Assembly: GCA_029262005.1 (NCBI GenBank)
Contig: JAJDAG010000154.1
Span: 1 to 35,001, forward strand
Source: Candidatus Zhuqueibacterota bacterium
GTDB taxonomy: Bacteria; Zhuqueibacterota; Zhuqueibacteria; Oceanimicrobiales; Oceanimicrobiaceae
Direction: 5' to 3'
Length of the DNA: 35,001 bases
Each line of letters starts with the position of its first letter. Position 1 is the first letter of the stretch. Position numbers and translations under genes: made by a program. Positions 2,714-35,001 of this stretch are shown in pieces. Under the pieces are notes generated by a model, which worked only from the letters and a program-made list of their open reading frames with translations, had not been told where the DNA came from and did no database searches.

Positions 2714-2754
2714 TGCACCCTTTTTGTTTTATATGTATAACAAAAAGGGTGCAA
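2713..2754. promoter_or_regulatory. long perfect inverted repeat at the predicted transcription start
   Basis: The arms TTGCACCCTTTTTGTT (2713-2728) and AACAAAAAGGGTGCAA (2739-2754) are perfectly complementary over 16 bp, around a 10-bp AT-rich centre. It begins at the last base of the -10 box, so it covers the initiation region. It could be an operator for a dimeric repressor or an RNA hairpin at the 5' end of the leader. It lies about 100 bp before the porin start codon. Confidence 0.6.
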
Positions 2755-2818
2755 ATAGATTATTTGATTATGTAGTAGCACAGTCATTGTCATACCAATT
2801 CCTCACTTCACTACACAC

Positions 2819-2837
2819 GGACAAGCCGGGCTTGTCC
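2819..2837. promoter_or_regulatory. 19-bp perfect palindrome in the porin leader
   Basis: GGACAAGCCGGGCTTGTCC has 9-bp arms around one central base. It ends 8 bp before the AAGGAG ribosome-binding site (2846-2851) of the porin gene. It could be a DNA operator or a hairpin next to the ribosome-binding site that tunes translation. The 2401-2857 divergent region otherwise holds no convincing gene. Confidence 0.45.
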
Positions 2838-2857
2838 AAAACATTAAGGAGTTCGAG

Positions 2858-6330: not shown

Positions 6331-8502
6331 ATGGCCTCAAATTGCCACGCATCAACAAATTTAGACGATGCAACGGCGTGTGATAACAATGTTGTACTCG
6401 TTGGCAACCCTAACTCCGGCAAGACCACTGTATTTAACGCACTCACCGGCCTGCGGCAAAAAGTAGGCAACTACCCCGGTGTCACAGTCGAAAAGAAAAC
6501 CGGCAGCATGACGGACAATCATGGCCGTGTTATCAAGCTGCACGACCTTCCTGGCCTCTACAGCCTTATACCAAAATCTCTTGACGACAAAATCTCAGTC
6601 GATATTCTCACAGGTCGTAGCCCGCACCTGAAAAGTGTCAAGCTTATCGTACTTGTGGCTGATGCCAGCAACTTAAACCGCAGTTTATATCTGATTACAC
6701 AGATAACCGAACTCGGGGCACCTGTTGTACTGGCACTCAACATGATGGATGCCGCGGAATCAAAGGGCACGCGCATCAACACAAAAGAGATGGCGAATGA
6801 ACTGGGGGTTGAAGTTCTGCCTGTTGTGGCCAAAAAAGGACAGGGCATCGCCGAGTTACGCAGCAAAATAATTGAATTATTAGCTCAAGAAAAAGACAAG
6901 CAAGCGCATACAGCCTTACCTGTAACCGACGCTGTGCAACAGGCAGCGCAACCTGTTGGCGAATACATCCAACGCGTTCATGGTCTCAGCGTGCAGGCTA
7001 GTCTTGCGGAAGCGTATCGAATCATCTCGAATGACAACGCACTTCAGGGTTGGCTGAGCCACACAAATGGCCGTAAACAAGACGCAACAGAGTTATCCAG
7101 CCTGGCGACCGATGCACGCGCTCAATTAGATGCGCAAAGTGTTACCTGGCAAATGCTGGAAACAAATAGTCGCTATCGTTTGGTAGATCACATTTTTCAA
7201 AAAGCTGTACAGCCAAACCTGAAGCAAGGGCGCAGCCATAGTGAAAAGGTGGATATCGTATTAACCCATCGCCTTGTTGGGCCACTCATCTTTGTCGCAA
7301 TCCTTGCACTCATTTTTCAGTCTATCTTCTTATGGGCTGAAATACCAACACAAGCCATCGAGTCAGTCATGGTATGGTTAGGGCAACAAGCAGCCCTAAT
7401 TCTACCGGAAGGAATTTTGCAGGACTTGATACTGGATGGCGCCATTGCCGGCGTGGGTGCCGTTCTTGTATTCATGCCGCAAATCATGTTTCTATTCTTC
7501 TTCTTGTCGCTTTTAGAAGACAGTGGTTATATGGCCCGCGCTGCGTTTATTTTTGACCGCTTTATGCGTGCTGCTGGATTGAGTGGACGCTCAGTTATCC
7601 CGCTCCTCTCTTCGTTTGCTTGTGCCATTCCTGGCATCATGGCAACGCGTACAATTCAAAGCTCACGAGATCGAATAATCACCATAATGATTGCCCCATT
7701 CATGAGTTGTAGCGCCAGGCTTCCGGTTTATGCCTTGATGATTGGCGCCTTTATTCCGCCGTATTATGTTCTGGGTATTTTTTCACTTCCAGCGCTCACA
7801 CTCCTGTCAATGTACATGATTGGCATATTGGCCGCACTTGGCACTGCAGTTCTTCTAAAAAAGCTTACAGGCCGTCAGACAAAAGAATCAAGCTTTGTTA
7901 TGGAATTGCCGCCGTACCGCCTGCCCTCACTTCGGTGGACTTCACTGCAAATGTGGGAACGTGCCAAAATATTTGTTACGGATGCAGGCAAAATCATTTT
8001 CGCCATGTCCATTGTTTTGTGGGCGCTTGCCTACTTTCCAAGGCCGGATAATCCTAATGAAGTCAGTGGAAGCACGGCAATCAGGCAGAGTTACGCCGGT
8101 AGATTAGGCCAGGCAATGGAGCCCGTTATTAGACCCCTTGGATTTGACTGGAAGATGGGGATTGGCCTGATTACTTCATTTGCAGCCCGCGAAGTAATGG
8201 TCAGCACCATGGCAACTATTTACAATGTTGAAGGTGGGAACGAAACTTCAGTGACATTGCGGGAAGCACTGAAGCGCGATCGCGATCCAATAACCGGCCA
8301 AGCGGTCTACACGCCTCTTGTCGCGCTGTCACTCATGGTATTTTTTGTGCTGGCGTGTCAATGCATGTCCACAGTTGCCATTGTCAAACGTGAAACCAAC
8401 AGTTGGCGTTGGCCAGTCACCATGATCGTTTACATGACGGTTATGGCGTATATCGGTTCTTTTATTGTGTATCAAGGCGGAAAAATACTGGGGTTAGGCT
8501 AA
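6331..8502 (+). CDS. feoB: ferrous iron transporter FeoB
   Basis: This 723-residue inner-membrane Fe(II) transporter has an N-terminal G domain: G1 GNPNSGKT (25-32), G2 VTVEK (51-55), G3 DLPG (72-75) and G4 NMMD (137-140). A helical GDI-like spacer follows to about 290. The transmembrane core then contains the conserved PLLSSFACAIPGIMATRTI and MSCSARLPVY segments, which hold the Cys residues of the Gate motifs, and later FAAREVMVSTMATIY. Length and motifs are normal. The preceding AGAAG serves as the ribosome-binding site. Its stop overlaps the ATG of the downstream Cys-rich peptide. Confidence 0.97.
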   Translation: MASNCHASTNLDDATACDNNVVLVGNPNSGKTTVFNALTGLRQKVGNYPGVTVEKKTGSMTDNHGRVIKLHDLPGLYSLIPKSLDDKISVDILTGRSPHLKSVKLIVLVADASNLNRSLYLITQITELGAPVVLALNMMDAAESKGTRINTKEMANELGVEVLPVVAKKGQGIAELRSKIIELLAQEKDKQAHTALPVTDAVQQAAQPVGEYIQRVHGLSVQASLAEAYRIISNDNALQGWLSHTNGRKQDATELSSLATDARAQLDAQSVTWQMLETNSRYRLVDHIFQKAVQPNLKQGRSHSEKVDIVLTHRLVGPLIFVAILALIFQSIFLWAEIPTQAIESVMVWLGQQAALILPEGILQDLILDGAIAGVGAVLVFMPQIMFLFFFLSLLEDSGYMARAAFIFDRFMRAAGLSGRSVIPLLSSFACAIPGIMATRTIQSSRDRIITIMIAPFMSCSARLPVYALMIGAFIPPYYVLGIFSLPALTLLSMYMIGILAALGTAVLLKKLTGRQTKESSFVMELPPYRLPSLRWTSLQMWERAKIFVTDAGKIIFAMSIVLWALAYFPRPDNPNEVSGSTAIRQSYAGRLGQAMEPVIRPLGFDWKMGIGLITSFAAREVMVSTMATIYNVEGGNETSVTLREALKRDRDPITGQAVYTPLVALSLMVFFVLACQCMSTVAIVKRETNSWRWPVTMIVYMTVMAYIGSFIVYQGGKILGLG

Positions 8503-8672
8503 TGGGCGTTCAGGAAATAACTGTCTTTTTGCTTGTGGCAGCGGCTGTATTTTATTCATCGAGAAAATTCCTTGAGCAGTTCTCGCAGGACGGCTCAAAT
8601 CCGAAATGCGCTAAATGTGAATTGAAAGAAGCCATTTCTTTGCAAAAACAACACAACACCGAGAGAACCTGA
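8502..8672 (+). CDS. FeoB-associated Cys-rich membrane peptide
   Basis: The 56-residue protein has one N-terminal transmembrane helix (about 4-17) and a short cytoplasmic tail with CAKCELKEA. It matches the small FeoB-associated Cys-rich family (FeoC-like position, CxxC motif). The ATG at 8502 shares its A with the last base of the feoB stop (TAATG), showing tight coupling. The longer open frame from 8403 only shadows feoB. It may assemble with FeoB or sense Fe or redox state, but the family's function is poorly known. Confidence 0.75.
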   Translation: MGVQEITVFLLVAAAVFYSSRKFLEQFSQDGSNPKCAKCELKEAISLQKQHNTERT

Positions 8673-8717
8673 GTTTTGAATTCCCAGCAAACAAAACCCT
8701 GCATCTTTAGCCAACGT

Positions 8718-9212
8718 TTACCTTAGCTGCATCTCCACCTCAATTTCATCACGAATTGGAATACTATCCATACCATAAACCGGCATATCCGTTTTGAGTA
8801 CGCGTGATTCCTCCACAGCATTTCTGTATAAAGCCACAAGCACAAAACCACGGGTTTGATAAAATCGCAACGCGTTCAGGTTGTCGTTGGTGGTGATCGC
8901 CCAACCACGTTTACATTTCAGGCCCACAGCCGTTTTTAACACTTCCTTCAACAATTCCGTACCAATGCCAATGCCCTCAATGAGACTATTAAGCGTAACA
9001 ATTTCACATTCATTACTTTCGATGTGGTAAGTGACGAGCCCTATCTTATTTCCATCCTGAACCGCAACGAACCCTGGAAGTTCATGTCCTTTTTGTATTC
9101 GCCCGCGGGTAACGATGTCTGTTGATCCCCAATGATCCTGCAAAAATTCTAAAACCCAAATCACATCTTCAGGCAATAGCGCCCGCACTTCTAAATTACT
9201 GCCTGCTTCCAC
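8718..9212 (-). CDS. GNAT-family N-acetyltransferase
   Basis: From a GTG at 9212, with an excellent GGGAGT ribosome-binding site five bases upstream, the protein is 164 residues. A longer frame to 9281 would need an ATG with no such site. The GNAT fold is clear: N-terminal LEVRALLPEDVIWVLEFL, strand GFVAVQDGNKIGLVTY, the acetyl-CoA loop region LIEGIGIGTELLKEVL (R/Q-x-x-G-x-G/A type) and the C-terminal NLNALRFYQTRGFV. The substrate is unknown. It is convergent with the feo operon and has no obvious partner. Confidence 0.85.
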   Translation of the reverse strand: MEAGSNLEVRALLPEDVIWVLEFLQDHWGSTDIVTRGRIQKGHELPGFVAVQDGNKIGLVTYHIESNECEIVTLNSLIEGIGIGTELLKEVLKTAVGLKCKRGWAITTNDNLNALRFYQTRGFVLVALYRNAVEESRVLKTDMPVYGMDSIPIRDEIEVEMQLR

Positions 9213-9346
9213 TTTACACTCCCAATAAATAATTAGATTCTGTGCACAATTTGCGAAACCAGAAAGCGATTTGCAAGGCATTTATGCACTGCAGCAATCA
9301 GCAGAAAACACGCCGTGCCTCTATTACAGTTGGTCTGGACAAAACA

Positions 9347-10300
9347 TCACAACACTACTTTTTCAAGTTCTTCAGCCAGGTTAAATCCGTTCCGTTCAAT
9401 GGTTTTTCGCGCCTCACTTTCAGGCCACAAGGCGGGATTTGTATGATTAAAATGAATAAAACGAATTTTCGCGCGTTCTTCAACAGACAAGGGTTTAAAA
9501 CGCGCCATGCTGTGCGTGATAAAGGGATGCGGAAACCCGCTCATATCACGCCCTGGTATTTCACCGTTGCCATAAAAAGTGGCGTCAATGTAGGCCACAT
9601 CCACCGTAGTCAAAACGTCCTCAATGTGCATACCTGCTTCGTCCCACTCCTTCCAGCTATCGATGTCCGGAATAAACAGGACTGATTTCCTGGGTCCGGC
9701 AATGCGAAATCCGACCACCTCAGAGTATTCCTGACGATGTGGAACCAGTAACGGCGTAACCGCCAAGCGCTTGTTGAGCTTCACAGTCACCCCTTCATGA
9801 AGCGAACGCAAGACAATATTTTCATACTTAACTAGTTGATGCCAGGGGCCATTTGTCTTGAGAAAATGGCTCATTTTCGGCATGGCGTAAACAGGCGTGC
9901 GGATTGCGCCCAGCGCCTCGTGCCCGAGAAACATCAAACCGGTATAATGCCCAATATGCGCGTGCGTGATAAAAATGCCATCGAGTCCCGGTTTATTCTT
10001 CACCGGTGCCGCCTTGTCCAACAAATGCAGTTGTTCCGGGAAGTCGGGTGTGGCCTCAAACAACCAACGCGTTGAATCAGCCGGGTCAACAATGGCCAGA
10101 CAAACCACATGTTGCTTGAAACTGACATTATCCCAACCCGGGTGCGTTTTTGTTCCTGCTTGCGGAACGCCTCCATCCTGTGCAATCCCGAGCACAAGCA
10201 GAAAGGGGGGCTCCGGAAGCTCTAGCGCTTGTGCAACCAGGCATTTAGAAAAAATCAAAAACAGCATCACGCTCAAACCAACCTGAAACTTGTTTGCCAT
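9347..10300 (-). CDS. exported metallo-beta-lactamase-fold hydrolase, PqqB-like
   Basis: ATG10300 is chosen because GGA lies 6 bp upstream and a signal peptide follows (residues 1-25, ending VAQA). This gives 317 residues. The strand and loop VLGIAQDGGVPQAGT recall the PqqB/phnP-type opening, and HAHIGH (113-118) is an HxHxxH metal site in which the usual Asp of HxHxDH is Gly. Later metal or active-site segments are VPHRQEYSEVVGF, FIPDID and IRFIHFNHTN. Export to the periplasm is unlike PqqB itself. No other pqq gene is nearby, so I call only the fold, not the reaction. Confidence 0.8.
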   Translation of the reverse strand: MANKFQVGLSVMLFLIFSKCLVAQALELPEPPFLLVLGIAQDGGVPQAGTKTHPGWDNVSFKQHVVCLAIVDPADSTRWLFEATPDFPEQLHLLDKAAPVKNKPGLDGIFITHAHIGHYTGLMFLGHEALGAIRTPVYAMPKMSHFLKTNGPWHQLVKYENIVLRSLHEGVTVKLNKRLAVTPLLVPHRQEYSEVVGFRIAGPRKSVLFIPDIDSWKEWDEAGMHIEDVLTTVDVAYIDATFYGNGEIPGRDMSGFPHPFITHSMARFKPLSVEERAKIRFIHFNHTNPALWPESEARKTIERNGFNLAEELEKVVL

Positions 10301-10337
10301 AATCATTCCTATTTCTTTTGGTGAAAACAATTCGGCT

Positions 10338-10366
10338 ATAATATAAAACGAATGCCTCATTGTCAA
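10338..10366 (-). promoter_or_regulatory. sigma70-type promoter of the metallo-beta-lactamase-fold gene
   Basis: On the minus strand TTGACA (10366-10361), a 17-bp spacer and TATTAT (10343-10338) give an almost consensus promoter 38 bp upstream of the ATG at 10300. Confidence 0.7.
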
Positions 10367-10482
10367 CGAATTGCATGTACGCACTTCTCATTTAAAGTTG
10401 TTATATTATTGCACGTTGTGCCAATCGGAACATTCATTACATAAACTGAAAGCCAGTCGAAAGACACATGTTTCCGCAGATC

Positions 10483-10511
10483 TGAAATCGAATTGTGACA
10501 TTCCGATTTCA
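10483..10511. promoter_or_regulatory. inverted repeat upstream of the SulP gene
   Basis: TGAAATCG (10483-10490) and CGATTTCA (10504-10511) are perfect 8-bp arms around 13 bp that include TGTGACA. It sits 75 bp before the GTG start of the SulP transporter, so it is a candidate operator. The TGTGA half-site hints at a CRP/FNR-type regulator, but the other half is poor. Confidence 0.35.
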
Positions 10512-10585
10512 TGCCATCGCATGTCGCAATTAGCTATCTGCGCATTGAAACAAGGCCACTAGCAATCTAATTAAGGAGAAACCTC

Positions 10586-12805
10586 GTGAAGCTTTTTTCA
10601 AACCTGAAAGGCGACATCATGGGGGGGATTACAACTTCGGTTATTGCACTACCATTGGCCATCGCCTTCGGTGTCGTGGCGTTCGCACCGCTGGGTGCGG
10701 ACTACATTGCACAAGGGGCGCTCACCGGACTCTACGGTGTGATTGTGGCAGGTATTCTCACCAGCATATTTGGCGGTACCCCCGGGCAGATTGCCGTGCC
10801 CACGGCCCCAATGTCCGTCATGGTTACTTCCATTATTGCAACTTTACTCAAACAACCGGAAATCATGGCACTGGGTGAAAATCAGGTCATGATCATTTTA
10901 ATCCTGGTTTCGATTACCATTTTTTTTGCTGGTATTTTACAACTGATTATGGGTGCAATCGGGGGCGGCAAACTCATTAAATTTATACCCTATCCAGTTA
11001 TTGCCGGTTTTATGAATGGCATTGCAATCATCATTTTTATCGGACAATTGCGACCCATACTCGGCGTGGCAAAGGAGGCTTCTTTCGCAAACATATTTAG
11101 TGGCGCCACCGTTGTCAGACCCGAGACCATTGTCGTTGGGGTCATTACAATAGCCGCCATGCTTACGGCAAAGCGACTATCCAAGGAAATACCCAGCTCA
11201 CTGGTTGGTTTGCTCTGCGGTGTTGGCGCTTATTTTTTCATTGGCAAAATCTTCAACCCATCGCTTTTGATGCTGGATAGCAACCCCTTGATCATAGGGC
11301 CCATACCCAGCACATTCCCAACACCGCGTCAAGTCATGAATTTTTTAAGTCTGAGTGCACAGATTCCAATGAACATGCTCAGCATTCTTATCATTCCCGC
11401 CATCACGCTTAGTGTTCTTGCCTCAATCGACACATTATTAACTTCTGTTGTCACAGACATGTTTACCAAATCAAAACACAACAGCACCAAAGAACTTTTT
11501 GGGCAAGGTGTCGGCAATATTGCGTCTGCATGTTTTGGTGGGCTGCCAGTCGCCGGGTCAACACTGGCTACGATGGTAAATGTAAATGGGGGTGGCCGCA
11601 CACCCATCGCCGGGGTCGTCAACAGCATTACTGTTTTGCTGGTTGTTTTGTTCATGGGCAGCCTGGTTCAGTGGATTCCAATGTCTGTCCTTGCGGGTAT
11701 TTTACTAATCACTTCAATTGGCATGATCGAGTCAGAAAGCATCAGCCTTTCTCGCAAGAAATCAGCACTGGGAAACTTATTTGTTATCATCATCGTGACG
11801 GTTGTCACGGTTGCCATTGACTTGATTATTGCCGTGCTAATCGGCCTTTTCATCACCACATTTCTATTTGTAAAAGAACAGATTAGCAAGAATATCGTGC
11901 GGCGCGTTTACACAGGCAACCTCATACGTTCAAAAAAAATCCGCAGCCAGGAAGCCATGGAGATCCTGACGAACAAAGGTGCGCGCATCAAGGTGTACGA
12001 ACTCAGCGGTTCCTTATTCTTCGGAACTTGCGACAAACTGCTCTCAGAAATTGAGAAAGAACTGGATAGCTTTGCAATCATTCTCGACTTTAAACGTGTT
12101 CACACCATCGACCTTACTGGCTCGCAACTCCTCAAACAAATCGTTGAGCGTATTCACGAAAAGGGGAACTATTTTCTTGTTAGCTACGTGTCGGCAGCAA
12201 TGAGTGATGAGAAATCGCGTATGTACGAACTTATGGACGATGTCGGCGTGTTGCAGGCCATCGGTAAAGATTTTATTTTCCAGGACACGGACCACGCGCA
12301 GGAATGGGCAGAAGACACGCTTATTCAGCAAGAACTTGAAGCAGCCAACATAAAACAGCAAGCGCTCGCCCTGAAAAATCTAAGTGTGTTTGAGACTCTT
12401 GGCCCGGAACAAATCGAAACGGTGCGAAAACACATGCACCCGCAACATTTCAAACCAAAAGAAATAGTCTTCAATGAAGGCGACCCGGGTGACAAAATCT
12501 ACTTTCTGCTCTCAGGGTGCGTCAGCGTTTTGACCAGCATTTCCGGCAATGGCCACGACCGCCGATTGGCTACTTTTGGTGAAGGCGTTTTTTTTGGCGA
12601 CATGGCCATTCTTGAGGGCAAACCGCGTTCAGCCACGGTGCGCGCAGACCAGGACACTGAAGTTCTTTACATGACCGTGGATGATTTTGAGCATCTGGTG
12701 CAGTGCGAACCACTGCTTGCCTCCAAAATGCTCCTTGGCATGACAAAAGAACTTTCAGCGCGTCTACGTCTTACAACAATTGAAGTGAGGACGCTGGAGG
12801 AATGA
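10586..12805 (+). CDS. SulP-family anion transporter fused to STAS and cyclic-nucleotide-binding domains
   Basis: The 739-residue protein starts at a GTG with AAGGAG 8 bp upstream. Residues 1-430 are the SLC26/SulP membrane core (ALPLAIAFGV; TAPMSVMVTS; VIAGFMNGIAIIIFIGQL; GQGVGNIASACFGGLPVAGS). Residues 455-575 are a STAS domain (IILDFKRVHTIDLTGSQLLKQI). Residues 597-725 are a CAP-type cyclic-nucleotide-binding domain with FFGDMAILEGKPRSATVRA; the phosphate-contacting Arg of PRSAT is present and the usual FGE is FGD. SulP proteins move sulfate, bicarbonate or related anions. Here the fusion suggests gating by cAMP or cGMP. The substrate cannot be assigned. It stands alone between a divergent hydrolase gene and convergent moaC. 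Confidence 0.93.
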   Translation: MKLFSNLKGDIMGGITTSVIALPLAIAFGVVAFAPLGADYIAQGALTGLYGVIVAGILTSIFGGTPGQIAVPTAPMSVMVTSIIATLLKQPEIMALGENQVMIILILVSITIFFAGILQLIMGAIGGGKLIKFIPYPVIAGFMNGIAIIIFIGQLRPILGVAKEASFANIFSGATVVRPETIVVGVITIAAMLTAKRLSKEIPSSLVGLLCGVGAYFFIGKIFNPSLLMLDSNPLIIGPIPSTFPTPRQVMNFLSLSAQIPMNMLSILIIPAITLSVLASIDTLLTSVVTDMFTKSKHNSTKELFGQGVGNIASACFGGLPVAGSTLATMVNVNGGGRTPIAGVVNSITVLLVVLFMGSLVQWIPMSVLAGILLITSIGMIESESISLSRKKSALGNLFVIIIVTVVTVAIDLIIAVLIGLFITTFLFVKEQISKNIVRRVYTGNLIRSKKIRSQEAMEILTNKGARIKVYELSGSLFFGTCDKLLSEIEKELDSFAIILDFKRVHTIDLTGSQLLKQIVERIHEKGNYFLVSYVSAAMSDEKSRMYELMDDVGVLQAIGKDFIFQDTDHAQEWAEDTLIQQELEAANIKQQALALKNLSVFETLGPEQIETVRKHMHPQHFKPKEIVFNEGDPGDKIYFLLSGCVSVLTSISGNGHDRRLATFGEGVFFGDMAILEGKPRSATVRADQDTEVLYMTVDDFEHLVQCEPLLASKMLLGMTKELSARLRLTTIEVRTLEE

Positions 12806-24253: not shown

Positions 24254-24741
24254 GTGATAAGTTGCCATTTCTGCACAAATGAGGCGAAATTACGCACTTT
24301 TCACGCCATATCGCTTTCTGTGCGCGACAATTTCTCTCTGAAGGAATTAACAAAAGCCCTTAACCTCTATGCTGCAGCAGCCACAGAGACACGGAAAGCG
24401 CAGAACAAAAAAAACAAAAGGTTAAAATTTAAGAAACGTGTGCGCGGCCATTGGCTCCTAATATCTTTCTTTGGTCAGAGCAAGTGTTCCAAGTTCTATC
24501 TTCTCAGTGGGCGCTGTGACTCCGGGCAAAATTTATGAATAAAGCAGGCTGACTTTATGACCGAACTGCATAATCCGCCACCATAAAAGGGTTCCGCGTC
24601 GAGCAGCAAAGTTCATCGCCGGCACAAATCACAGATACCGGAGGTCTTTTACGCTGCACGGTTTGCTGCTTAACACCTTTGGCGTGCATTCTTACGCACC
24701 ATACAACATCGCGCCATTTACCCTCCCTGTTTAGTGAAAAC
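24254..24741. other. intergenic stretch without a gene; long-range inverted repeat
   Basis: No credible protein is seen. AGCAGCAAA (24602-24610) and TTTGCTGCT (24662-24670) are perfect 9-bp complements enclosing 51 bases, which could form the basal stem of a structured RNA. The plus-strand frame to 24538 is mostly antisense to the first FHA gene. Confidence 0.4.
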
Positions 24742-24956
24742 CTTTAACCAGGGCACGCTTGTCCGCAAGCAAACATCGAAGGACTTTTTACAGCTCTCAC
24801 ATATCCGTGACGAACGGTAAATAACTTTAACCAACGCACGCTTGACCGCAAGCAAACATCGCAGGACTTTTTACAGCTCTCACATATCCGTGACGAACGG
24901 TAAATAACTTTAACCAAAGCACGCTTGTCCGCAAGCAAACATCGCAGGACTTTGTT
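24742..24956. repeat. 83-bp tandem repeat, about 2.6 copies
   Basis: CTTTAACCA recurs at 24742, 24825 and 24908, an exact 83-bp period. Copies 1 and 2 are complete and nearly identical. The third stops after GCAGGACTTT at about 24956. Each unit includes GCTTGTCCGCAAGC (GACC in copy 2), which can form a short stem, and CATATCCGTGACGAACGG. Short open frames here follow from the repeat and are not genes. Confidence 0.9.
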
Positions 24957-24994
24957 GAATTATTCCTTAATTCTCCGGGTTTGACAGCTACTTG

Positions 24995-25787: not shown

Positions 25788-25968
25788 ATTGGAAACTAGA
25801 CCTAACAAGAGATGGGATTGAGACCGTGCAGTTTCTTGCTCACGCGATTCACTTGCCTTCAATTGGAAACTAGACCTAACAAGAGATGGGATTGAGACAA
25901 CAGAACACTCATGCTGACACCTCCGCACTTGTTAGATTGGAAACTAGACCTAACAAGAGATGGGATTG
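25788..25968 (+). CRISPR. short CRISPR array: 37-bp repeats, two 37-bp spacers, degenerate last repeat
   Basis: Two identical 37-bp repeats (25788-25824 and 25862-25898) start ATTGGAAACTAGACC and end GATGGGATTGAGAC. A third copy (25936-25968) matches for 33 bases, then reads CCGG instead of AGAC. Spacers are 25825-25861 and 25899-25935, 37 bp each. The 3' end ATTGAGAC resembles the 8-base crRNA handle (ATTGAAAC) of type III systems, and the degenerate copy lies at the far end, so the array is read rightward. The repeat has little dyad symmetry, fitting Cas6 processing of unstructured repeats. Cas6 is encoded 1.5 kb downstream. Confidence 0.93.
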
Positions 25969-25985
25969 CCGGTCTTCCCCGCCCT

Positions 25986-26135: not shown

Positions 26136-26172
26136 AATATGTGTGGTTGACCAGGGGCTTGAATGAGGAAAA

Positions 26173-26280
26173 CTTGTACCACGACATTTATGTCGTGACA
26201 GCACCCAATATTGGGTATGGACCACGGAGCGCCAGACAAAAAATTTCAAAAAAACGCGACATGAATGTCACGATACAGGT
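26173..26280. repeat. REP pair 1 (inverted REP palindromes upstream of the transposase)
   Basis: The REP at 26173-26196 (CTTGTACC then ACGACATTTATGTCGT) faces an inverted copy at 26255-26280 (CGCGACATGAATGTCACG then ATACAGGT). Between them is another palindrome, ACCCAATATTGGGT (26203-26216). The layout is that of a REPIN. Confidence 0.75.
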
Positions 26281-26323
26281 AGAGGCCAAGTGCTGGCCTG
26301 TGGCGTAAACGAAAGGTGAACTA

Positions 26324-26998
26324 ATGGAAGATCTGCTCTACTATCGTCGCAATCTGCCACACTTTCACCCGAAAAATGGTGTGTTCTTCATTACGTTCCG
26401 GCTTGCAAACTCGTTGCCGGCACATGTGGTAAGGCAACTTCGGCAAGAGCGAGACTCAAAACTTAAAACCGTTGACAACAACCATTCCTCCCAATTGCAC
26501 CAACGAGAAAAATACCGAATTGAAAAACGTCATTTTGGACAATTCGATGAATTGCTTGACAGGGCTTTATCCGGACCGCGCTGGCTGGGCATAGGGGAAA
26601 TAGCAGAGATTGTAACCGCTAAACTACATGATATGGATGGCGTTGCCTACAAACTCATCGCGTACTGCATCATGTCAAATCATGTGCATTTATTGGTGGA
26701 TATGGCGGGTTATGACCAGTCGGCTAATGCCGGAGTGGCCGGTTCAAAAAAACAGTATCCGGTCGCAGACTTTTTGAGCAGACTTAAGGGCAGTACTGCG
26801 AGAATGTGCAACCTGGTATTGCAGCGTGAGGGTTCTTTCTGGCACAAGGAAAGCTATGACCATTGTGTCCGTGACAGCGATGAACTGGTCAGAATTATTC
26901 AGTATATTCAGGATAATCCCGTGAAGGCTGGTCTGGCCAAAGACTGGCAGGAATGGCATCATACCTATTGCCACTTGGCAGCTATTACGGATTTATAA
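26324..26998 (+). CDS. REP-associated tyrosine transposase (RAYT, Y1-type HUH nuclease)
   Basis: The 224-residue Y1 transposase domain protein starts RRNLPHFHPKNGVFFITFRL. The HUH motif is His120-Val-His122 in IMSNHVHLL, and the probable nucleophile is Tyr178 in FWHKESYDHCVRDSDEL, followed by YIQDNPVKAGL. All parts of the family are present, so it looks intact. RAYTs cut and join single-stranded REP hairpins. It is flanked on both sides by REP palindromes (pair 1 upstream, pairs 2 and 3 downstream), the expected arrangement for a domesticated RAYT with its own REPINs. The ATG is preceded by AAAGGTG. Confidence 0.93.
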   Translation: MEDLLYYRRNLPHFHPKNGVFFITFRLANSLPAHVVRQLRQERDSKLKTVDNNHSSQLHQREKYRIEKRHFGQFDELLDRALSGPRWLGIGEIAEIVTAKLHDMDGVAYKLIAYCIMSNHVHLLVDMAGYDQSANAGVAGSKKQYPVADFLSRLKGSTARMCNLVLQREGSFWHKESYDHCVRDSDELVRIIQYIQDNPVKAGLAKDWQEWHHTYCHLAAITDL

Positions 26999-27012
26999 GA
27001 AGACAGCACGTA

Positions 27013-27121
27013 CTTGTACCAGGGCATTCATGTCATGAAGTGCCTGAAACTGTTAGTGAGGGCAGACCGTCTGATGAAAGATTAGAAGAAAAAGCCGCGA
27101 CATGAATGTCGCGATACAGGT
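27013..27121. repeat. REP pair 2 (downstream of the transposase)
   Basis: The copy at 27013-27036 (CTTGTACC, then GGCATTCATGTCAT, partly decayed) faces a perfect inverted copy at 27096-27121 containing CGCGACATGAATGTCGCG. The spacing of the pair is close to pair 1. Confidence 0.75.
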
Positions 27122-27142
27122 GCCTGACCGGTAAACCGGAAA

Positions 27143-27236
27143 CTTGTACCACGACATTCATGTCGTAAAGTGCGGCGAAGGAGCCGAAACAACAAAACCC
27201 GCCGAAAAGCCGCGACATGAATGTCGCGATACTGGT
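27143..27236. repeat. REP pair 3
   Basis: ACGACATTCATGTCGT preceded by CTTGTACC (27143-27166) faces CGCGACATGAATGTCGCG followed by ATACTGGT (27211-27236). Both palindromes are perfect. Confidence 0.78.
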
Positions 27237-27318
27237 TGGGACACGGGGCAATATTGATGGCCTGCACCGGTATCTCACGAATGGTATCACATTCAAGACA
27301 AATCCGTCACAAAATCAC

Positions 27319-27347: not shown

Positions 27348-27468
27348 AAATCTGCGGGTTTGAGTTCCCCAAACATTTCCCAAACTTTCGCGTACCCGCA
27401 TTTTCTTCAGAGTTTAGTCAAGATTGTTCTTTAAGCAACCGGTGAGACCAACAGGAGGGACATACCGG

Positions 27469-28500
27469 ATGAGTAGCGATGAATCTTATAAACTGCCCAA
27501 CATACCGTTTCTGCGGTTGCGCTTCCAATTAAGCTCTCATAGCAACTGTTATCTTCCGGAATACAAAGGCTCTTTGTTGCGCGGCGCCTTTGGCCATGCT
27601 TTGCGCCGTACTGTCTGCGTGATGGCGCCACAACAGGCATGCGATTCCTGTATGTTACGGCAACAGTGCACTTATGCCCGGCTGTTTGAAACTTTTGTGC
27701 AGGAGCCGGCGCCGCGGTTTTTGCGCGGAGTGCCGACTGCGCCCCGTCCCTATGTGTTTGAACCGTTTGACCGCAACAAAAATTACCAGAGCGGCGATTT
27801 GCTGAAATTTGACATGGTGCTTTTTGGCCAGGCGGTTGAGTTGTATCCCTATGTCATTTATTCGGTGGAATGCATGGCCAAGACCGGACTGGGTAAGAAC
27901 CGGCATCGCTTTTCCCTCGACAATGTGGTTTGGCAGGATGAAACGGCCTTTGCTCATGCAGGCGGAAATGGCGTTGCCGCAAAGCAAACGACTCAGGCAA
28001 ACAGCAATGGCTGGCACGCGCTTTATAGTGGCAAAGAGCGCAAGTTGATTTCCCAGGCCGTGCCGCAAAGGCGCGCGGCCAACCCGATAGATAATTCCCT
28101 GAACGCTGTCACTTTACATTTTTTAACCCCGACCCGTTTAAAATTCCGCGATAGTTTAAGCATTGATTTTACCTTTCGTATGCTGGTGTTTAAAATGCTG
28201 CGGCGGGTTCTGGAGCTGGCGCATTTTCATTTGCCGGACGCGGAAGTTGACTGGGAATTCCACGACCTCTTGGTGGCTGCCGATGAGGTGCAAATCACCG
28301 GCCGCAAGTTAAAATGGCATGACTGGCAGCGCCGCAGCAACCGCCAGGATACCAGCATGAAAATGGGTGGTTTTGTCGGTGGGCTGACTTTGCAGGGGGA
28401 GTTGGCGCCTTTTCAGGCGCTGTTGCAGGCTTGTGAAGTGGTGCATGTGGGCAAGGGGGCGGTGTTTGGGAATGGGAAGGTGGGGGTTGAGTTTGGGTAG
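27469..28500 (+). CDS. cas6: Cas6 CRISPR pre-crRNA endoribonuclease (RAMP)
   Basis: ATG27469 with AGGAGGG upstream gives 343 residues; an upstream TTG frame at 27424 has no such site. The N-terminus LRLRFQLSSHSNCYLPEYKGSLLRGAFGHALRRTVC is the ferredoxin-like Cas6 opening with the L-R-G-A-F-G-H motif. It is followed by Cys50, Cys58, Cys61 and Cys67 in the four-Cys arrangement seen in many type III Cas6 proteins. The C-terminal G-rich loop VGKGAVFGNGKVGVEF is typical of RAMPs. It cuts the repeat of the adjacent array to leave the ATTGAGAC handle. It heads the cas operon. Confidence 0.92.
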   Translation: MSSDESYKLPNIPFLRLRFQLSSHSNCYLPEYKGSLLRGAFGHALRRTVCVMAPQQACDSCMLRQQCTYARLFETFVQEPAPRFLRGVPTAPRPYVFEPFDRNKNYQSGDLLKFDMVLFGQAVELYPYVIYSVECMAKTGLGKNRHRFSLDNVVWQDETAFAHAGGNGVAAKQTTQANSNGWHALYSGKERKLISQAVPQRRAANPIDNSLNAVTLHFLTPTRLKFRDSLSIDFTFRMLVFKMLRRVLELAHFHLPDAEVDWEFHDLLVAADEVQITGRKLKWHDWQRRSNRQDTSMKMGGFVGGLTLQGELAPFQALLQACEVVHVGKGAVFGNGKVGVEFG

Positions 28501-28792: not shown

Positions 28793-29308
28793 ATGATAGA
28801 CAAAAATGTTCTTAAATTGTACGGTGAAAACACAGCCAATTCTGCAAAATGTCATTTTAAAGCTGCAGACCTCCGCAAGCGCACAATCATGTTTTTGATA
28901 ATTACAATAATGCTTGTCTCAATTATTGGAATTACTCAATTAATTCAATCGGCGCTTATAAACCAACTCCTTGGGGTACTGAGTCTCCTAGGTTCCATCC
29001 TGTTGTTGGTTTTTGAACTCCAGGATGGAGCTAATAGCCATGTAAAACACAAAGCCATTGGAGAGGCATATATTCAACTGCATTATGACATTTTTCATGC
29101 TTTCCAAGACGATAAATGCGCTCAAAAGCATATTACGAGTCTGAAAAACCGAATGAACGATCTGAATAAGAGTGACAAACCATTTGTTTCATTTTTTGCC
29201 AGAAGGATGGCGAAAAGAGCAATCGAAGTAAAAGAGGAAATGAATCCGTGGTGGAAGCCGGATGCTCTCCCTTCGGATAACGACGAATCAATGGCTCAAA
29301 GAAAGTAA
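28793..29308 (+). CDS. SLATT-like two-TM membrane protein inside the type III CRISPR operon
   Basis: The 171-residue protein starts at an ATG with CGGGAG upstream. After an amphipathic N-terminus with ADLRKRTIM, two transmembrane helices follow (about 32-52 and 56-75). A cytoplasmic helical domain then carries VKHKAIGEAYIQLHYDIFHAF (84-104) and a basic C-terminal part. This is the layout of SLATT domains, predicted pore-forming effectors coupled to nucleotide-signal or other defence systems. It sits between Cas6 and a Cas10-like polymerase, 292 bp after cas6 and 81 bp before cas10. The 28501-28792 gap has no gene; a TATAAT at 28710-28715 lacks a good -35. The effector role is inferred. Confidence 0.72.
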   Translation: MIDKNVLKLYGENTANSAKCHFKAADLRKRTIMFLIITIMLVSIIGITQLIQSALINQLLGVLSLLGSILLLVFELQDGANSHVKHKAIGEAYIQLHYDIFHAFQDDKCAQKHITSLKNRMNDLNKSDKPFVSFFARRMAKRAIEVKEEMNPWWKPDALPSDNDESMAQRK

Positions 29309-29389: not shown

Positions 29390-30865
29390 ATGAGCAACTA
29401 CTATCTCCGTGTTGAAGCTGTCAATCTAGACAATTCAATACACGACACGTACAATATCAGTACGATTCGAGGCGGTAGCTTCATGCTTTTTGAAGCGATC
29501 AAAGCGCTCGAAAAAGATTCATCTGTTTGCAGCAGCTTAGCCAAGGTCTCAGAAGGCGCGAGTATAGGTTTATATAAGCTCACTGCGGCAAGCAATGATA
29601 AGGAGGCTAAGAGAATCAAAGATGATGTTTTGAGTTTTTTACACAAAGAAGCGCCAATAGCAACTTTTGTCGCCAATTATTATGACTTTGACTGTGAGGA
29701 ATGCTGTGGCGATTTTTCCAAAGGTGTAAAAACACTCATGGCTAAGAACCGATGGGCACAGTGGCAGCGGCCGACCATCGTTATGCCAGAAGCAAATTCA
29801 TCAGAAAGAGCGTGTACTTTGGATGGTGTGCGGCCGGGGTGTCACGGTAATGGGGATGAAAACATTTCAAGCGCAACATTGAGCAGAAGAGACTATGGGA
29901 GGGCTCTACGTAACAATCTCTATGAGATCATACTTCAAGATAAGACTATTGACGTAAAATTCACAAAGGACCTGGAAGCTCTCAGCAGTGACGCACAAAA
30001 AGGAAATCTCAATGGTAAAATGGCCTTTATATATCTGGACGGAAATAAGTTCGGTAGCATACGGGACAAATACTGCACGAGTGATACACTTCTCAATAAA
30101 TTCGACCATGTTGTACAGGAGGAACTGCGAGCTACTATCCTGAGGAATATTCTTAAAGAAGTAGAAATACTTGATGACTTTAAAACGGAATTTGGTGAAA
30201 TTCGATTAGAAACTTTGCTTTGGGGTGGTGATGAGATTGAATGGATTGTGCCAGCCTGGCTTGGATGGCAAGTTCTTGAGATTTTCTACTCAACGAATAT
30301 AGCATTTGAGGTTTCTGATAAAGACCAACAAGCTATGGCAGTCCCGTTAACTCACGCCTGCGGAATTATTTTTTGCAACCATTCAGCACCCATATTGCAA
30401 ATTAGAAAAATAGCGCATGAGCTGGTTGACTGTGCAAAGCAGGAAATCACAAGCACTCCGGAAAGACACAGAGAGGGCAATTTCATTCAGTATCTTGTTT
30501 TGGAGTCCTTTGATATGATAGAAGGTAGCTTGGAATCGTTCACAGATAATTACTATAAGGACATTCCGTTTTCAGAGCTATTGATCCATGGAGACGATAT
30601 CTCACCGCTTAAGAATAGTTTTCAAATATTACATACTTTTTTCCCTCGCAATAAGGTTTTCGAGATTGTAGCGGCCTTGAAAATAGCAGTCAAAGATGCC
30701 AGGTCTGCAGGGAATAGCGTAGAAGAAATACTGAAAAAAGTGCTAAAAGGTCTGGGTGATGATCGGGAAATAGTGGCGCAATCCATAGAACAAATTACCA
30801 AATCAAACCAAAACCGCTGGTATTTAATTGCCGACTTATGGGATTTTTTCAAGGAGGTAAAATGA
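29390..30865 (+). CDS. compact Cas10-like polymerase (type III CRISPR), no HD domain
   Basis: The 491-residue protein has an ATG preceded by TAGGAG. The N-terminal part (YYLRVEAVN, STIRGGSFMLFEAI) is followed by Cys102, Cys105, Cys106 and CTLDGVRPGC (142-151). The palm begins at MAFIYLDGNKFGSI (Asp217). The active-site turn is GGDE (279-282) in LLWGGDEIEW, a form of the Cas10 GGDD. CGIIFCNHSAPILQIRKIAHELVDCAK (324-350) matches the second half of the Cas10 palm. No HD nuclease motif is seen at the N-terminus, and it is shorter than Csm1 or Cmr2. It could make cyclic oligoadenylate or a related signal. Its stop overlaps the next gene (ATGA). Confidence 0.8.
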   Translation: MSNYYLRVEAVNLDNSIHDTYNISTIRGGSFMLFEAIKALEKDSSVCSSLAKVSEGASIGLYKLTAASNDKEAKRIKDDVLSFLHKEAPIATFVANYYDFDCEECCGDFSKGVKTLMAKNRWAQWQRPTIVMPEANSSERACTLDGVRPGCHGNGDENISSATLSRRDYGRALRNNLYEIILQDKTIDVKFTKDLEALSSDAQKGNLNGKMAFIYLDGNKFGSIRDKYCTSDTLLNKFDHVVQEELRATILRNILKEVEILDDFKTEFGEIRLETLLWGGDEIEWIVPAWLGWQVLEIFYSTNIAFEVSDKDQQAMAVPLTHACGIIFCNHSAPILQIRKIAHELVDCAKQEITSTPERHREGNFIQYLVLESFDMIEGSLESFTDNYYKDIPFSELLIHGDDISPLKNSFQILHTFFPRNKVFEIVAALKIAVKDARSAGNSVEEILKKVLKGLGDDREIVAQSIEQITKSNQNRWYLIADLWDFFKEVK

Positions 30866-32667
30866 GCTATCAAGGAATAGAACTTGAGGTAACACTTACC
30901 ATTGAAGGCCCTTTTCTCTGTACTGCAACTGGCACTTCGCAGTGGGGAATAGACGCTACATTTACTCGTGATTTTAACGATGAGGTGGTCATTATGGCCA
31001 GCCACATCAAAGGCAAATTACGAGAATCCTGGCGGGAACTGCAATCTGTGGAAAGCAGTGGTTTTTGTCTCGACCTCGACCATTTGCTTGGCAAAGAGAA
31101 CAGCGACGGCTATTTTGAACCTGAGCGTGGCTCCTTGCAGATATCCAGGTTTAAATTATCCGGTGATGAACCGCAGAAAAGAGCATACCACCGAATTAGA
31201 GTAGAAAGTGAATCCGGAACTGCTGACGAAGGAGCTTTACTCACTTTTGAAACGCCATTCGGAAGCGGAGAAACAACTGAATGGACTGGTACTATTTCAT
31301 TCACTGCCGAAACCGCTGAAATCGAAAACCTCATCAACCAGATTAAGCAGGGTCTGCGTTGGATTACTGCGTTAGGTGCGAACAAGGGAATCGGTTTTGG
31401 CCGCTTACACAAGGTTGAAGTTAAGGAGATTTCCAGAAAGAATATAGGAAAGCCAATTATTGGAAATTCAGCAAAAAATAGAACTGCCCTCGGGTTAGTC
31501 ATCAGTCCGGTCGAACCGCTTCTCATTGGCGGCATAAAACGCAAGAGCAACTATCTTGAATCAGAGACAAATATTTCCGGGGCCGTTCAGAAAGGCGCTT
31601 TGGCCGCTTGTATTAATAGAAAATTGGGACGACCTGCAAATAGTCCACTGCCCCCCGACCTTAGTGAACTTCCTTATTTATCAAAATATTTTTCCACCCT
31701 CTGTTTTCAAACAGCATTTCCAACTTTGGATGATGAAACGAAAAAGCGTCCTACTTTTGTTCCACTGTCAACAGTTGAGGTGAAAAAAAATGACTTTTTT
31801 GATGTCGCCCTGACCTCAGTTCCAAAACTTATACATGGTGAGCCTCCGGCGTTTAAACTTGATTGGAAGCCACCCGCCAACGTCTATTCAGAGTTCGGGT
31901 TTGCTTGTCCCAAAAAGAAAGGCTATACGCGAACTGCTGTTGAAAAAGAAAGCCGGAGGGCGGCTGAAGAAAATTTGTTTACTTATGTATATCTCTGCCC
32001 TGTTGATGAAAAAACGGGTAGGAAAATCGATTGGGTTTCTAATGTTACTTTGCCGAAAACGATTTCTGAGTCTGACAGGAATGGTGTATTAAACGAACTT
32101 GCATTCGTTGTTGAAAACTGGTGGGATAAACTTGGAAAAAGAGATAGTCGTGTAAAAGTACAGGCTGTGGATATGATAGAATCATTTCAGGCCGAAAATA
32201 ACCCTATTGAAGATGGTAAAGTAATCATTTCGCTACAGTCTGACACCCTCATGCTAAACCCTGACAAAGATTTGGTTGATCTTGAGGCTTTATACAGTGA
32301 ATTCTGGTCAAAAATATCGGGTGGTGGTCTGCAACTGGATTCATTCTTTGCAGAACAGAAATTACTCGGGGGGTATTTGTCATACCGTTTCAAGAAAAGA
32401 GCTGATGAGCCGTACTACCCGTTTTTTCTTACAACGGCTGGGAGTGTTTTTGTTCTCAATGTTACATCCAGAAAGACAGACAAAGAAATGACATCAAAAC
32501 TAAATACATGGAGGCAAACAGGACTTGAAGTTCCTGAATGGGCGCTCAAAAAACACGGAACACATGCCGGGCAACTCGACTGGAGAACCTGTCCATTTAC
32601 ACCCGAAAATGGCTTTGGTGAAATAAAAGTGAACCTGCAATGGCACTGGGGAAAACAAGCAAAGTAG
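30862..32667 (+). CDS. fused double-RAMP protein (Cas7 + Cas5/Csx10-like), type III
   Basis: ATG30862, with AAGGAGG just upstream, is the proper start (601 residues); it overlaps the Cas10 stop by 4 bp. Residues 1-195 form one RAMP unit with an IKGKLRESW motif (49-57) and the G-rich loop GANKGIGFGRL (172-182). Asp residues at 31, 37 and 40 precede the motif and may be catalytic. From about 209 a second RAMP begins (LVISPVEPLLIGG, then ISGAVQKGALAA 238-249), resembling Csx10/Cas5. The rest (to 601) is poorly defined. Type III-D2 is known for Cas7-Cas5 fusions; this may be a relative. Confidence 0.75.
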   Translation: MSYQGIELEVTLTIEGPFLCTATGTSQWGIDATFTRDFNDEVVIMASHIKGKLRESWRELQSVESSGFCLDLDHLLGKENSDGYFEPERGSLQISRFKLSGDEPQKRAYHRIRVESESGTADEGALLTFETPFGSGETTEWTGTISFTAETAEIENLINQIKQGLRWITALGANKGIGFGRLHKVEVKEISRKNIGKPIIGNSAKNRTALGLVISPVEPLLIGGIKRKSNYLESETNISGAVQKGALAACINRKLGRPANSPLPPDLSELPYLSKYFSTLCFQTAFPTLDDETKKRPTFVPLSTVEVKKNDFFDVALTSVPKLIHGEPPAFKLDWKPPANVYSEFGFACPKKKGYTRTAVEKESRRAAEENLFTYVYLCPVDEKTGRKIDWVSNVTLPKTISESDRNGVLNELAFVVENWWDKLGKRDSRVKVQAVDMIESFQAENNPIEDGKVIISLQSDTLMLNPDKDLVDLEALYSEFWSKISGGGLQLDSFFAEQKLLGGYLSYRFKKRADEPYYPFFLTTAGSVFVLNVTSRKTDKEMTSKLNTWRQTGLEVPEWALKKHGTHAGQLDWRTCPFTPENGFGEIKVNLQWHWGKQAK

Positions 32668-32696
32668 GGCTGAAAGTAATCTAAAGAGGAACCGCT

Positions 32697-33641
32697 ATGA
32701 GTACTGTTAACTATTTAAAAGGAAGTAATTTTATAAATCGGTATAAAATCGTGGGCCATTTAATAACTGAGACACCGCTTCATATAGGCTCTGGAGGGGT
32801 AACGAATCGTCCCGGGTTAACCAAGAAAGAAAACGAGAAAGAGCCGGTAGATATTTCTGAAGTAGCTCTTGATCTCCAAGAAAAGCCATGTCTGCCAGGG
32901 AGTACTTTACGTGGAAACATACGAAGCTGGCTGTTGCAGATCCTACGCTGTGTGCCCAAATCCTGGCCGGAGAGCAACGAAACTCTGGCTTGGGAGCATG
33001 ACTTTGAAAATTTAGTCCATTATGAACGATACCAGCAACAGGGAGAACAAATCAATTTCATGAAAAACTCTGCCAGTGTTCTGGAGCGGTTATTTGGAAC
33101 TGCATTCTCAGCCTCCAAAATAGATGTGTGGGATGCCCCATGCATCACAAGTGGCAATCAGCTTACTGTTCCGCCAGAGCTTTCCCATGCCAACCAACCG
33201 CCTTACTGGTCATCACAAAGACTTACCTATGTCACTCAATCGGTTGCTATCGATCCGAATACCGGAGCGGCTGCCGATCAGAAGCTGTATCACTTTGAAG
33301 TGATACCAAAAGGGGTCATGTTTAAAGTAACATTAGTCGGACAAAATTTGACTGATTTGGAACTGGGCATGCTCTTGTTTGGCCTTGAGGCGTTTGATTC
33401 ACAAATATTCCCTGTCACTTTGGGAGCCATGTCCAATCGTGGGTTCGGACATTTTAAATGGAATCTGCAAGAAATTTACCGACTTGATCTGAGCAACATG
33501 CGAGACTGGCTGAAAGAGGCAATATCGGCAAACAGCGCCGGTTATGCTTCACTAAAGCCACTCGGTGCAAGCAAGGAAGCATTGATAAATAACTTTAAGG
33601 AAACATTCAAAAATGCTTTGGAGGTTCAGTATGAAGGTTGA
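32697..33641 (+). CDS. RAMP protein, Cas7/Csm3-like
   Basis: The 314-residue protein has AAGAGGAA upstream of ATG32697. Features are LHIGSGG (28-34), PCLPGSTLRGNIRSWL (64-79), the strand QSVAIDPNTGAAADQKLYHFEVIPKG typical of Cas7, and the glycine-rich GAMSNRGFGHF. Cas7 subunits line up along the crRNA in the type III complex. Asp59 (LDLQEKP) precedes the PGSTLRG helix at the place where Csm3 has its target-cleaving Asp, though alignment is needed. It overlaps the next gene by 11 bp. Confidence 0.85.
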   Translation: MSTVNYLKGSNFINRYKIVGHLITETPLHIGSGGVTNRPGLTKKENEKEPVDISEVALDLQEKPCLPGSTLRGNIRSWLLQILRCVPKSWPESNETLAWEHDFENLVHYERYQQQGEQINFMKNSASVLERLFGTAFSASKIDVWDAPCITSGNQLTVPPELSHANQPPYWSSQRLTYVTQSVAIDPNTGAAADQKLYHFEVIPKGVMFKVTLVGQNLTDLELGMLLFGLEAFDSQIFPVTLGAMSNRGFGHFKWNLQEIYRLDLSNMRDWLKEAISANSAGYASLKPLGASKEALINNFKETFKNALEVQYEG

Positions 33642-34656
33642 AGAACCGTTTGCAAAAGGCATAAATTCTGTCTTGGTCATTAATTGGAGTATAAAACTGG
33701 CAACCCCACTGTGCATAAGAAATGGCAGCAAGTTTAAATGGAAACAGACGTCAAAAGAAAAATCCAGGAACACCGGTGTGCAATTTCTCTGGAATGAGCC
33801 TAAAGAAGGCAATTGGAATGAAATTCAAGATTTACACTACGCCCTACAGCTTCAGAACAATCATCTAACACCCTTTTATCAAATACCGGCGAGCAGTCTT
33901 CGCGGGGCCATGCGGTCCTGGTCATTGCAACATTTATCTGAAGAGAAAGATTGGCCGGTTCTAACCGGCATCAACAAAGAAGAATCTGGTAGCACGGATA
34001 TTAGTTTGGAGGATGTTAAAAATAAACTGAATCAATACAAAAATGGCTTGTCACTTATTGCTGGTCTGTTTGGCTTGACTTTCCAAAGTTCGGATGAAAC
34101 TGAGGCTCTGTCCTTTGCAAGCAGACTGTGGGTTGAGACCCTCCCATTCCACAACCAGCAAGAAAAGCCAGATATTGACTCGCATAGTATGGCGTCTAAC
34201 AATAACTACGGTCCACAAAATGCCTGGCGCCAGATCATGCTGCGAGGGCCGGTGGACCGAATCACTCACAGCGCAAAAGAAGGCGGGTTGCATAGTTTTT
34301 TGGAATTTTCAGCCGGGCAGCACTTTGAGGCCCAAGTGAAAATTATGAATCCGCAAACAAGAGACTTAGGGCTTGTTGCACTTTGGGAACGTGAAATCGA
34401 TGCAGGGTTTCTTCGTCTCGGTGCATTAAGCAGCGCTGGCAGAGGACGGCTTAGCATTCTGCAAGACAAGTCACATAGAGAAATCCATGCGGTTCCCGGA
34501 GAAACGGTTGCGGGACTAACGGTAGAAAATTCTGCCCATAAATCCAATGATATTATAGCAGGACTCTGGCATAAATGCCTTGTCCCATGGGATGAGAAAT
34601 CAAAGCAATACTATTTAAATAAGCTTAAGAACTCACTGAAAAATAATGTGGAGTAA
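33631..34656 (+). CDS. RAMP protein, second Cas7-like subunit
   Basis: ATG33631 follows GGAGG at 6-bp spacing, which decides it over the frame's earlier start at 33613. The 341-residue product has TPLCIRNGSKFKW near the N-terminus, IPASSLRGAMRSW (85-97, the RAMP S-x-x-x-G helix) and GALSSAGRGRLSI (G-rich loop). DRITHSAKEGGLHSFLEF is the usual Cas7 strand region. The Asp used for target cleavage in Csm3 is not apparent upstream of the SLRG helix, so this subunit may be a structural Cas7. Its gene is tightly packed with its neighbours. Confidence 0.8.
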   Translation: MKVEEPFAKGINSVLVINWSIKLATPLCIRNGSKFKWKQTSKEKSRNTGVQFLWNEPKEGNWNEIQDLHYALQLQNNHLTPFYQIPASSLRGAMRSWSLQHLSEEKDWPVLTGINKEESGSTDISLEDVKNKLNQYKNGLSLIAGLFGLTFQSSDETEALSFASRLWVETLPFHNQQEKPDIDSHSMASNNNYGPQNAWRQIMLRGPVDRITHSAKEGGLHSFLEFSAGQHFEAQVKIMNPQTRDLGLVALWEREIDAGFLRLGALSSAGRGRLSILQDKSHREIHAVPGETVAGLTVENSAHKSNDIIAGLWHKCLVPWDEKSKQYYLNKLKNSLKNNVE

Positions 34657-34662
34657 TTATTC

Positions 34663-35001
34663 ATGGCTGATCATCAAATGAACCCCTTTGATTTTGTACC
34701 GCTGCCGAAAAACGGCCCCCTACAACCAAACGAAGTTCTTAACGATACCGAACGTTACGAAGGCTTCATAGATTATTCCATTTCAACGCTCACTCCAGTT
34801 AATATCGCTGGAAAAATCGAATGTGAAGGCCACGGGAATTCATTACACTACAAACAGAAATCCTTTTTTCGCTACCAGTCTGGTGGGCCTTGTGTTATTC
34901 CGGGTAGTTCAATTCGAGGCATGATCGCCAGTTTTATCGAAGCATTGACGGGAAGTGATTTTGGTGCATTGACTGTTGGAGATGAAAAAAACAGTGATCC
35001 G
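34663..35001 (+). CDS. TIGR03986-like CRISPR RAMP protein, N-terminal part (cut by window edge)
   Basis: ATG34663 has GGAG upstream. The 113 visible codons contain NPFDFVPLP (7-15), ERYEGFIDYSISTLTPVNI, KSFFRY and the RAMP helix VIPGSSIRGMIASFIEALTG (78-97). This combination is the opening of the TIGR03986 family of CRISPR-associated RAMP proteins. The gene continues past the right edge. It belongs to the same operon as the genes upstream. Confidence 0.82.
   Translation, partial: MADHQMNPFDFVPLPKNGPLQPNEVLNDTERYEGFIDYSISTLTPVNIAGKIECEGHGNSLHYKQKSFFRYQSGGPCVIPGSSIRGMIASFIEALTGSDFGALTVGDEKNSDP

Follow-up and report, generated by a model that had tools for sequence, protein, structure and literature searches.

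Within the window, by which we mean the whole 35,001-nucleotide stretch of DNA that was analyzed, a CRISPR array is followed by a set of cas genes on the plus strand. The array (25788-25972, +) consists of three 37-nt repeats and two spacers, with a last repeat that is degenerate at its 3' end. The repeat terminates in ATTGAGAC, which resembles the 5' tag of type III crRNAs, and it also occurs on contigs C110, C43, and C203 of the same genome; no exact matches to the spacers were found in viral contigs. Three tandem 83-nt direct repeats lie at 24734-24982. A REP-associated-transposase-like ORF (26324-26998), with repeated palindromic elements (CGACATGAATGTCG) on either side, lies between the CRISPR array and cas6 (26172-27240 in all). 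No Rfam matches at gathering scores were obtained in the window.

The first gene of the set is cas6 for crRNA processing (27424-28500, +; Pfam CRISPR_Cas6, 2e-17; PADLOC Cas6, 5e-93), followed by a gene for a small two-transmembrane protein (28793-29308, +) and by cas10 (29390-30865, +). Next comes a Cas5-family, Csx10-like double RAMP (30862-32667, +; PADLOC Csm4/III-D, 1.8e-41; PDB 9wxh_C, 5.2e-70), which probably begins at ATG 30862, within the ATGA that it shares with the stop codon of cas10, rather than at the start of the longer listed frame (30838). Three Cas7-family RAMP genes complete the visible operon: a Csx7/Csm3-like protein of 314 aa (32697-33641, +; Pfam RAMPs, 2e-26; NCBIfam Csx7, 9e-23; 9wxh_D, 1.8e-28), a second of 347 aa (33613-34656, +; Pfam RAMPs, 2.3e-6; PADLOC Cas7_IIId, 4.6e-10), and a TIGR03986/Cas7-11-like third (34663-35001, +; PDB Cas7-11, 2.8e-5), of which 113 aa remain before the contig end at 35001 cuts the gene. 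A relative in locus L025 matches the window at this third gene only. From its sequence, the operon is type III-D-like: besides cas6 and cas10, it has one double RAMP of the Cas5 family and three Cas7-family RAMPs encoded by separate genes. A Csx10-like Cas5 and multiple Cas7 RAMPs, as in type III-D operons, are both present, with PADLOC and NCBIfam matches across 30838-34656, those of NCBIfam staying below the curated cut-offs. Because the contig breaks off within the operon, a further effector may be encoded downstream. Contig C110, on which a reverse transcriptase gene and cas1 are also found, may be the continuation of the window locus by a putative join. Its locus (L046) contains, at 3-374, a 5'-truncated S-4TM gene with 45% identity over 119 aa to the S-4TM protein of locus L065 and, downstream of it at 1930-4007, the reverse transcriptase and cas1 genes together with an array that has the window's repeat.

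The 491-aa Cas10 comprises Palm1, an eroded zinc ribbon, Palm2 (D217, GGDE279-282), and a helical C-terminal domain. The initial annotation had described a compact Cas10 of this length with an intact palm Asp217 and GGDE and no HD motif, and all of this was confirmed by the translation, which contains D217 (FIYLDGNKFG), GGDE279-282, IRGGS26-30, C102/C105/C106, and CTLDGVRPGC142-151, and by Pfam, NCBIfam, and PADLOC scans, in which no HD domain, degenerate or otherwise, was detected at E<=1. The gene could be extended upstream by only four more open codons. Residues 1-375 align with positions 1-403 of the PADLOC Cas10 profile PDLC01418 (E 2.3e-25), and as the first residues align to profile position 1, the protein begins with the Palm1 strand. 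An HD-type Cas10, common in III-A, was thus ruled out, there being no HD match, no room upstream, and a start at Palm1; similarly, the H18-D19 dipeptide was rejected as an HD nuclease motif, with H18 private to the window protein and D19 invariant among 19 aligned sequences. In this alignment, D217, N219, G279, G280, D281, and E282 are invariant in 19/19 Cas10s, far beyond chance, including first-set relatives with only 25-43% identity to the window Cas10, and hence neither palm metal ligand (D217, D281) has been lost. The proposal of a signal synthase without DNase activity is therefore supported as probable, and would be normal for III-D; lacking an HD domain, the output of this Cas10 should be mainly signalling, besides target-RNA cleavage by Cas7.

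A separate Cas10 family, as had been suggested from the N-terminal motifs, was not supported. IRGGS is the counterpart of the IRGAS Palm1 motif in the ordinary Cas10 of locus L008, and the zinc ribbon of the type III-D Cas10 8bmw_K aligns over its first half (CDNCGIRPAV) with CTLDGVRPGC, which we therefore read as an eroded zinc ribbon. Among the 19 sequences, C142 is kept in 14, whereas C102, C105, C106, and C151 occur in the window Cas10 only, so that the Cys102/105/106 cluster was rejected both as a family mark and as a metal site. The absence of an HD domain is likewise the rule in III-D, where a survey found HD domains in only 3% of Cas10s (PMC11229360). A Cas10 model built from three sequences (mean pLDDT 55, used for topology only) contained Palm1, a linker, Palm2 with the GGDE hairpin, and the helical C-terminal domain, and its best fold match was the type III-D Cas10 8s9t_C, while a profile built from 14 relatives reached the type III-D Cas10s 8bmw_K and 8s9t_C. 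Profile and fold searches thus favor III-D structures, and Palm2 carries the first-strand Asp and the GG(D/E)-type motif of III-D Cas10s. At the level of sequence, the protein is thus an ordinary member of the HD-less Cas10s found in type III-D-like systems, and the Cas10 assignment itself is firm.

Among solved structures, the best sequence match is 9wxh_B, a 592-residue Cas10 (E 5.8e-62). In the 9wxh/9wxi/9wxj complex (Cas10 of 592 aa, RAMP of 635 aa, TIGR03986 RAMP of 1235 aa), for which no publication was found in a literature search, the Cas10 and the double RAMP are clearly homologous to those of the window, and the Cas7 is homologous too; no HD region was aligned between the two Cas10s, and the Cas7 units, which the window encodes as separate genes, are joined into a single chain of 1235 aa in 9wxh. 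The type III-D Cas10s 8s9t and 8bmw resemble the window protein in profile match, best fold match, GG-D active site, and the Csx10-like Cas5, and differ in that the window protein has an eroded zinc ribbon, GGDE instead of GGDD, and SLATT as the associated candidate effector. A type III-I Cas10, defined by the lack of an N-terminal polymerase/cyclase domain and by a Cas7-11i partner (PMC12669027), was ruled out, as the cyclase residues are present and the Cas7 genes separate, and so was the mCpol of Panoptes, a stand-alone single-palm enzyme that lacks genes for a crRNA complex, as the window protein (491 aa) has two palms and belongs to a complete cas operon accompanied by an array. A weak second Cas10 match in the genome (contig C142) reads as an MHYT/PAS histidine kinase, and viral contigs yielded no Cas10 relatives in a single-sequence search or with alignment A2.

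The unusual part of the locus is the neighboring gene at 28793-29308, which the initial annotation had left out of its finding. Located between these two cas genes, cas6 and cas10, and sharing their strand, it encodes a SLATT-type protein of 171 aa, a candidate membrane effector. Hydropathy peaks at residues 32 and 55 indicate two transmembrane helices (~32-50 and 55-73), followed in the model by a helical cytoplasmic part; the single-sequence model is all-helical, without a nucleotide-binding beta domain, at low confidence (mean pLDDT 65). The protein matches NCBIfam SLATT_4 at E 2.2e-10 (40.6 bits, below the curated cut-off of 55) and the PADLOC CBASS 2TM profile PDLC00712 at E 5.5e-9, and a homologue in locus L033 at a BLASTP value of 2e-6, while the homologue in locus L065 passes Pfam SLATT_4 (48.6 against a cut-off of 27). 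The window SLATT is divergent. PDLC00712 has one match in the 5.77-Mb window genome and none in 14 control genomes. As cas6 and the SLATT gene are separated by 292 bp, their co-transcription is not certain; no promoter signal stands out. Pore formation in membranes is predicted for the SLATT family (PMC12632851). A literature search, with most subscription journals outside its reach, returned no link of SLATT to Cas10 or type III CRISPR, and an earlier mention is possible.

Membrane genes also lie next to cas10 or elsewhere in the operon in related loci, which we read by local ORF calling and BLAST, scanning key neighbors with profiles; the sources of the Cas10 relatives were the phylum of the window itself, those to which a Desulfobacteraceae and a Chlorobiaceae genome belong, and a single plasmid. 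Including the window, 3/19 loci carry a SLATT protein, all three with PDLC00712 as best PADLOC profile: in L033 the gene (6e-58) shares 4 nt with the end of the RAMP series and precedes cas6, overlapping the last of the RAMP genes, and in L065 it (8e-26) ends 39 bp upstream of cas10. An S-4TM protein is encoded in two loci, 5 bp upstream of cas10 in L005 (PDLC00724, 5e-15) and 25 bp downstream of the final RAMP gene in L025 (PDLC00724, 3e-26), so that SLATT or S-4TM stands beside cas genes in only five of the 19. CorA or a DHH-CorA fusion is the commonest partner (nine loci: L026, L027, L028, L029, L032, L061, L062, L063, and L064); no membrane protein was found in L009 and L030, and the remaining three loci end at a contig edge (L010, L034, and L035). 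The CorA-associated III-D systems share with the window the Cas10 clade, the operon, and an adjoining membrane effector gene, and differ in encoding CorA or DHH-CorA where SLATT or S-4TM is found here. On the Cas10 tree, which is small and weak at several inner branches, L065 groups with CorA-carrying loci in one clade (100/100), and a minimum of two switches between CorA and SLATT/S-4TM is required.

Several further features of these loci deserve mention. DHH domains are fused to or lie beside the CorA effector in L027 (12317-14722, -), L063 (4872-7310), L064 (4659-7421), and L031 (14351-15160), with matches to PADLOC DHH_CorA and C3a116, which makes these proteins candidate signal-degrading enzymes; III-D loci are stated to encode none of the known SAM-AMP-cleaving enzymes (PMC12669027). 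Two frames are chimeric, one in L005 (1685-3670), where Cas10 from about residue 405 runs straight into the double RAMP, and one in L031 (7418-8587), where the start of CorA runs into the C-terminal part of Cas10; these represent either deletions or assembly errors. Directly downstream of the III-D-like operon of L065 lies a CBASS-like set (7725-12040) of a metallophosphatase-FGE protein, a SMODS CD-NTase, and S-4TM; as its own CD-NTase precedes it, this 4TM gene was left out of the tally of type III effectors.

The closest plasmid relatives of the SLATT protein, from Aeromonas, Rhizobium, and Methylobacterium, each have a CD-NTase directly downstream (PDLC00769, E ~1e-109 or better), which indicates a CBASS context. 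PDLC00712 is the best match in both settings, but whereas the CBASS examples adjoin a CD-NTase, none was detected in the window (tblastn with three CD-NTases, window only), where the neighboring signal enzyme is Cas10.

In type III systems, binding of target RNA switches on the synthesis of a nucleotide messenger by Cas10. We propose, with a probability of roughly 0.6, that the RNA-guided, III-D-like Cas10 of the window makes a nucleotide signal that triggers a CBASS-type SLATT membrane effector. Cas6 would make the crRNA for a complex of Cas10, the Cas5-family double RAMP, and the three Cas7-family RAMPs; upon binding a matching foreign RNA, Cas10 would join nucleotides into a second messenger, which would most likely open or assemble the two-transmembrane SLATT protein, and activated SLATT would permeabilize or depolarize the inner membrane such that phage replication stops. 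In this scheme we infer the cyclase activity, the identity of the messenger, and the activation of SLATT by it. As no CARF or SAVED domain was found in the six scanned operon proteins of the window (Pfam, NCBIfam, PADLOC), and as the SLATT model is all-helical, at its low confidence, the messenger would presumably act on SLATT itself. Candidates for this messenger are cyclic oligoadenylates and SAM-AMP-like conjugates, the latter being considered because related Cas10s accompany CorA, the SAM-AMP effector of Bacteroides fragilis, where synthesis involves the acidic acceptor-site residues D70 and E151 of Cas10 (PMC10600005); the CorA signal in III-D is an open question (PMC12669027). A broader and tentative extension, to which we give well under even odds, is that this III-D Cas10 clade produces a messenger, perhaps other than a cyclic oligoadenylate, whose readers are membrane effectors lacking CARF and SAVED domains, with CorA, SLATT, and S-4TM being interchangeable in this role.

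The pairing of SLATT with cas10 might instead be incidental, if the real effector were of CorA or CARF type, with its gene past the end of the contig or at another genomic site, and if SLATT were a passenger or were left over from a decayed CBASS inserted in the locus. The break of the contig inside the operon and the prevalence of CorA among relatives would fit such a scenario, as would the usual partnership of this SLATT family with CD-NTases and the CBASS-like set just downstream of the type III operon in L065. However, the SLATT gene is intact, it lies between cas genes in two loci (the window and L033) and beside cas10 in a third, these three loci sit on distant branches of the Cas10 tree, and no CD-NTase was detected in the window, and we consequently regard a passenger role as unlikely.

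A still less probable arrangement is inhibition, in which SLATT is kept silent by a low basal level of Cas10 messenger and becomes toxic once that messenger is lost, for instance to a phage phosphodiesterase. Panoptes provides the model for this: its mCpol, a miniature Cas10-like cyclase, works in this manner beside the CBASS-like two-transmembrane protein 2TMbeta (PMC12657230), and in DRT10, cDNA has been suggested to inhibit SLATT (PMC12632851). But mCpol is stand-alone and constitutively active, whereas the window encodes a full crRNA-guided operon, in which synthesis is normally activated by target RNA, and 2TMbeta has a beta-barrel sensor that is absent from the all-helical, low-confidence SLATT model. 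Finally, we consider it very improbable that the cyclase is inactive, with the complex cleaving RNA only and SLATT acting independently: cyclases have been inactivated or lost in III-C, III-G, III-H, and III-I (PMC12669027), and GGDE departs from the canonical GGDD, but D217, N219, and GGDE are invariant across the 19 sequences, and GGDE is one of the variants that are listed for loci with known effectors and for cyclases that are likely active (PMC11229360).

Sharing of effectors between CBASS and type III systems is a known theme, TIR-SAVED being a CBASS effector that has already been noted in type III loci (PMC11229360); the pairing of SLATT with Cas10, and of S-4TM with its relatives, which we put forward with moderate confidence, appears to be new. 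Taken as signal-driven effectors of the Cas10 complex, SLATT and S-4TM would constitute a new class of type III effectors that is exchanged with CBASS, widening the known type III effector set and linking two nucleotide-signalling defences via shared membrane effectors. As relatives carry CorA, the clade offers a direct comparison of one Cas10 family with different membrane readers, and a programmable, RNA-triggered Cas10 product could provide a route to the ligand of SLATT and S-4TM. Overall, our findings suggest that bacteria swap SLATT-like membrane effectors between type III CRISPR and CBASS.
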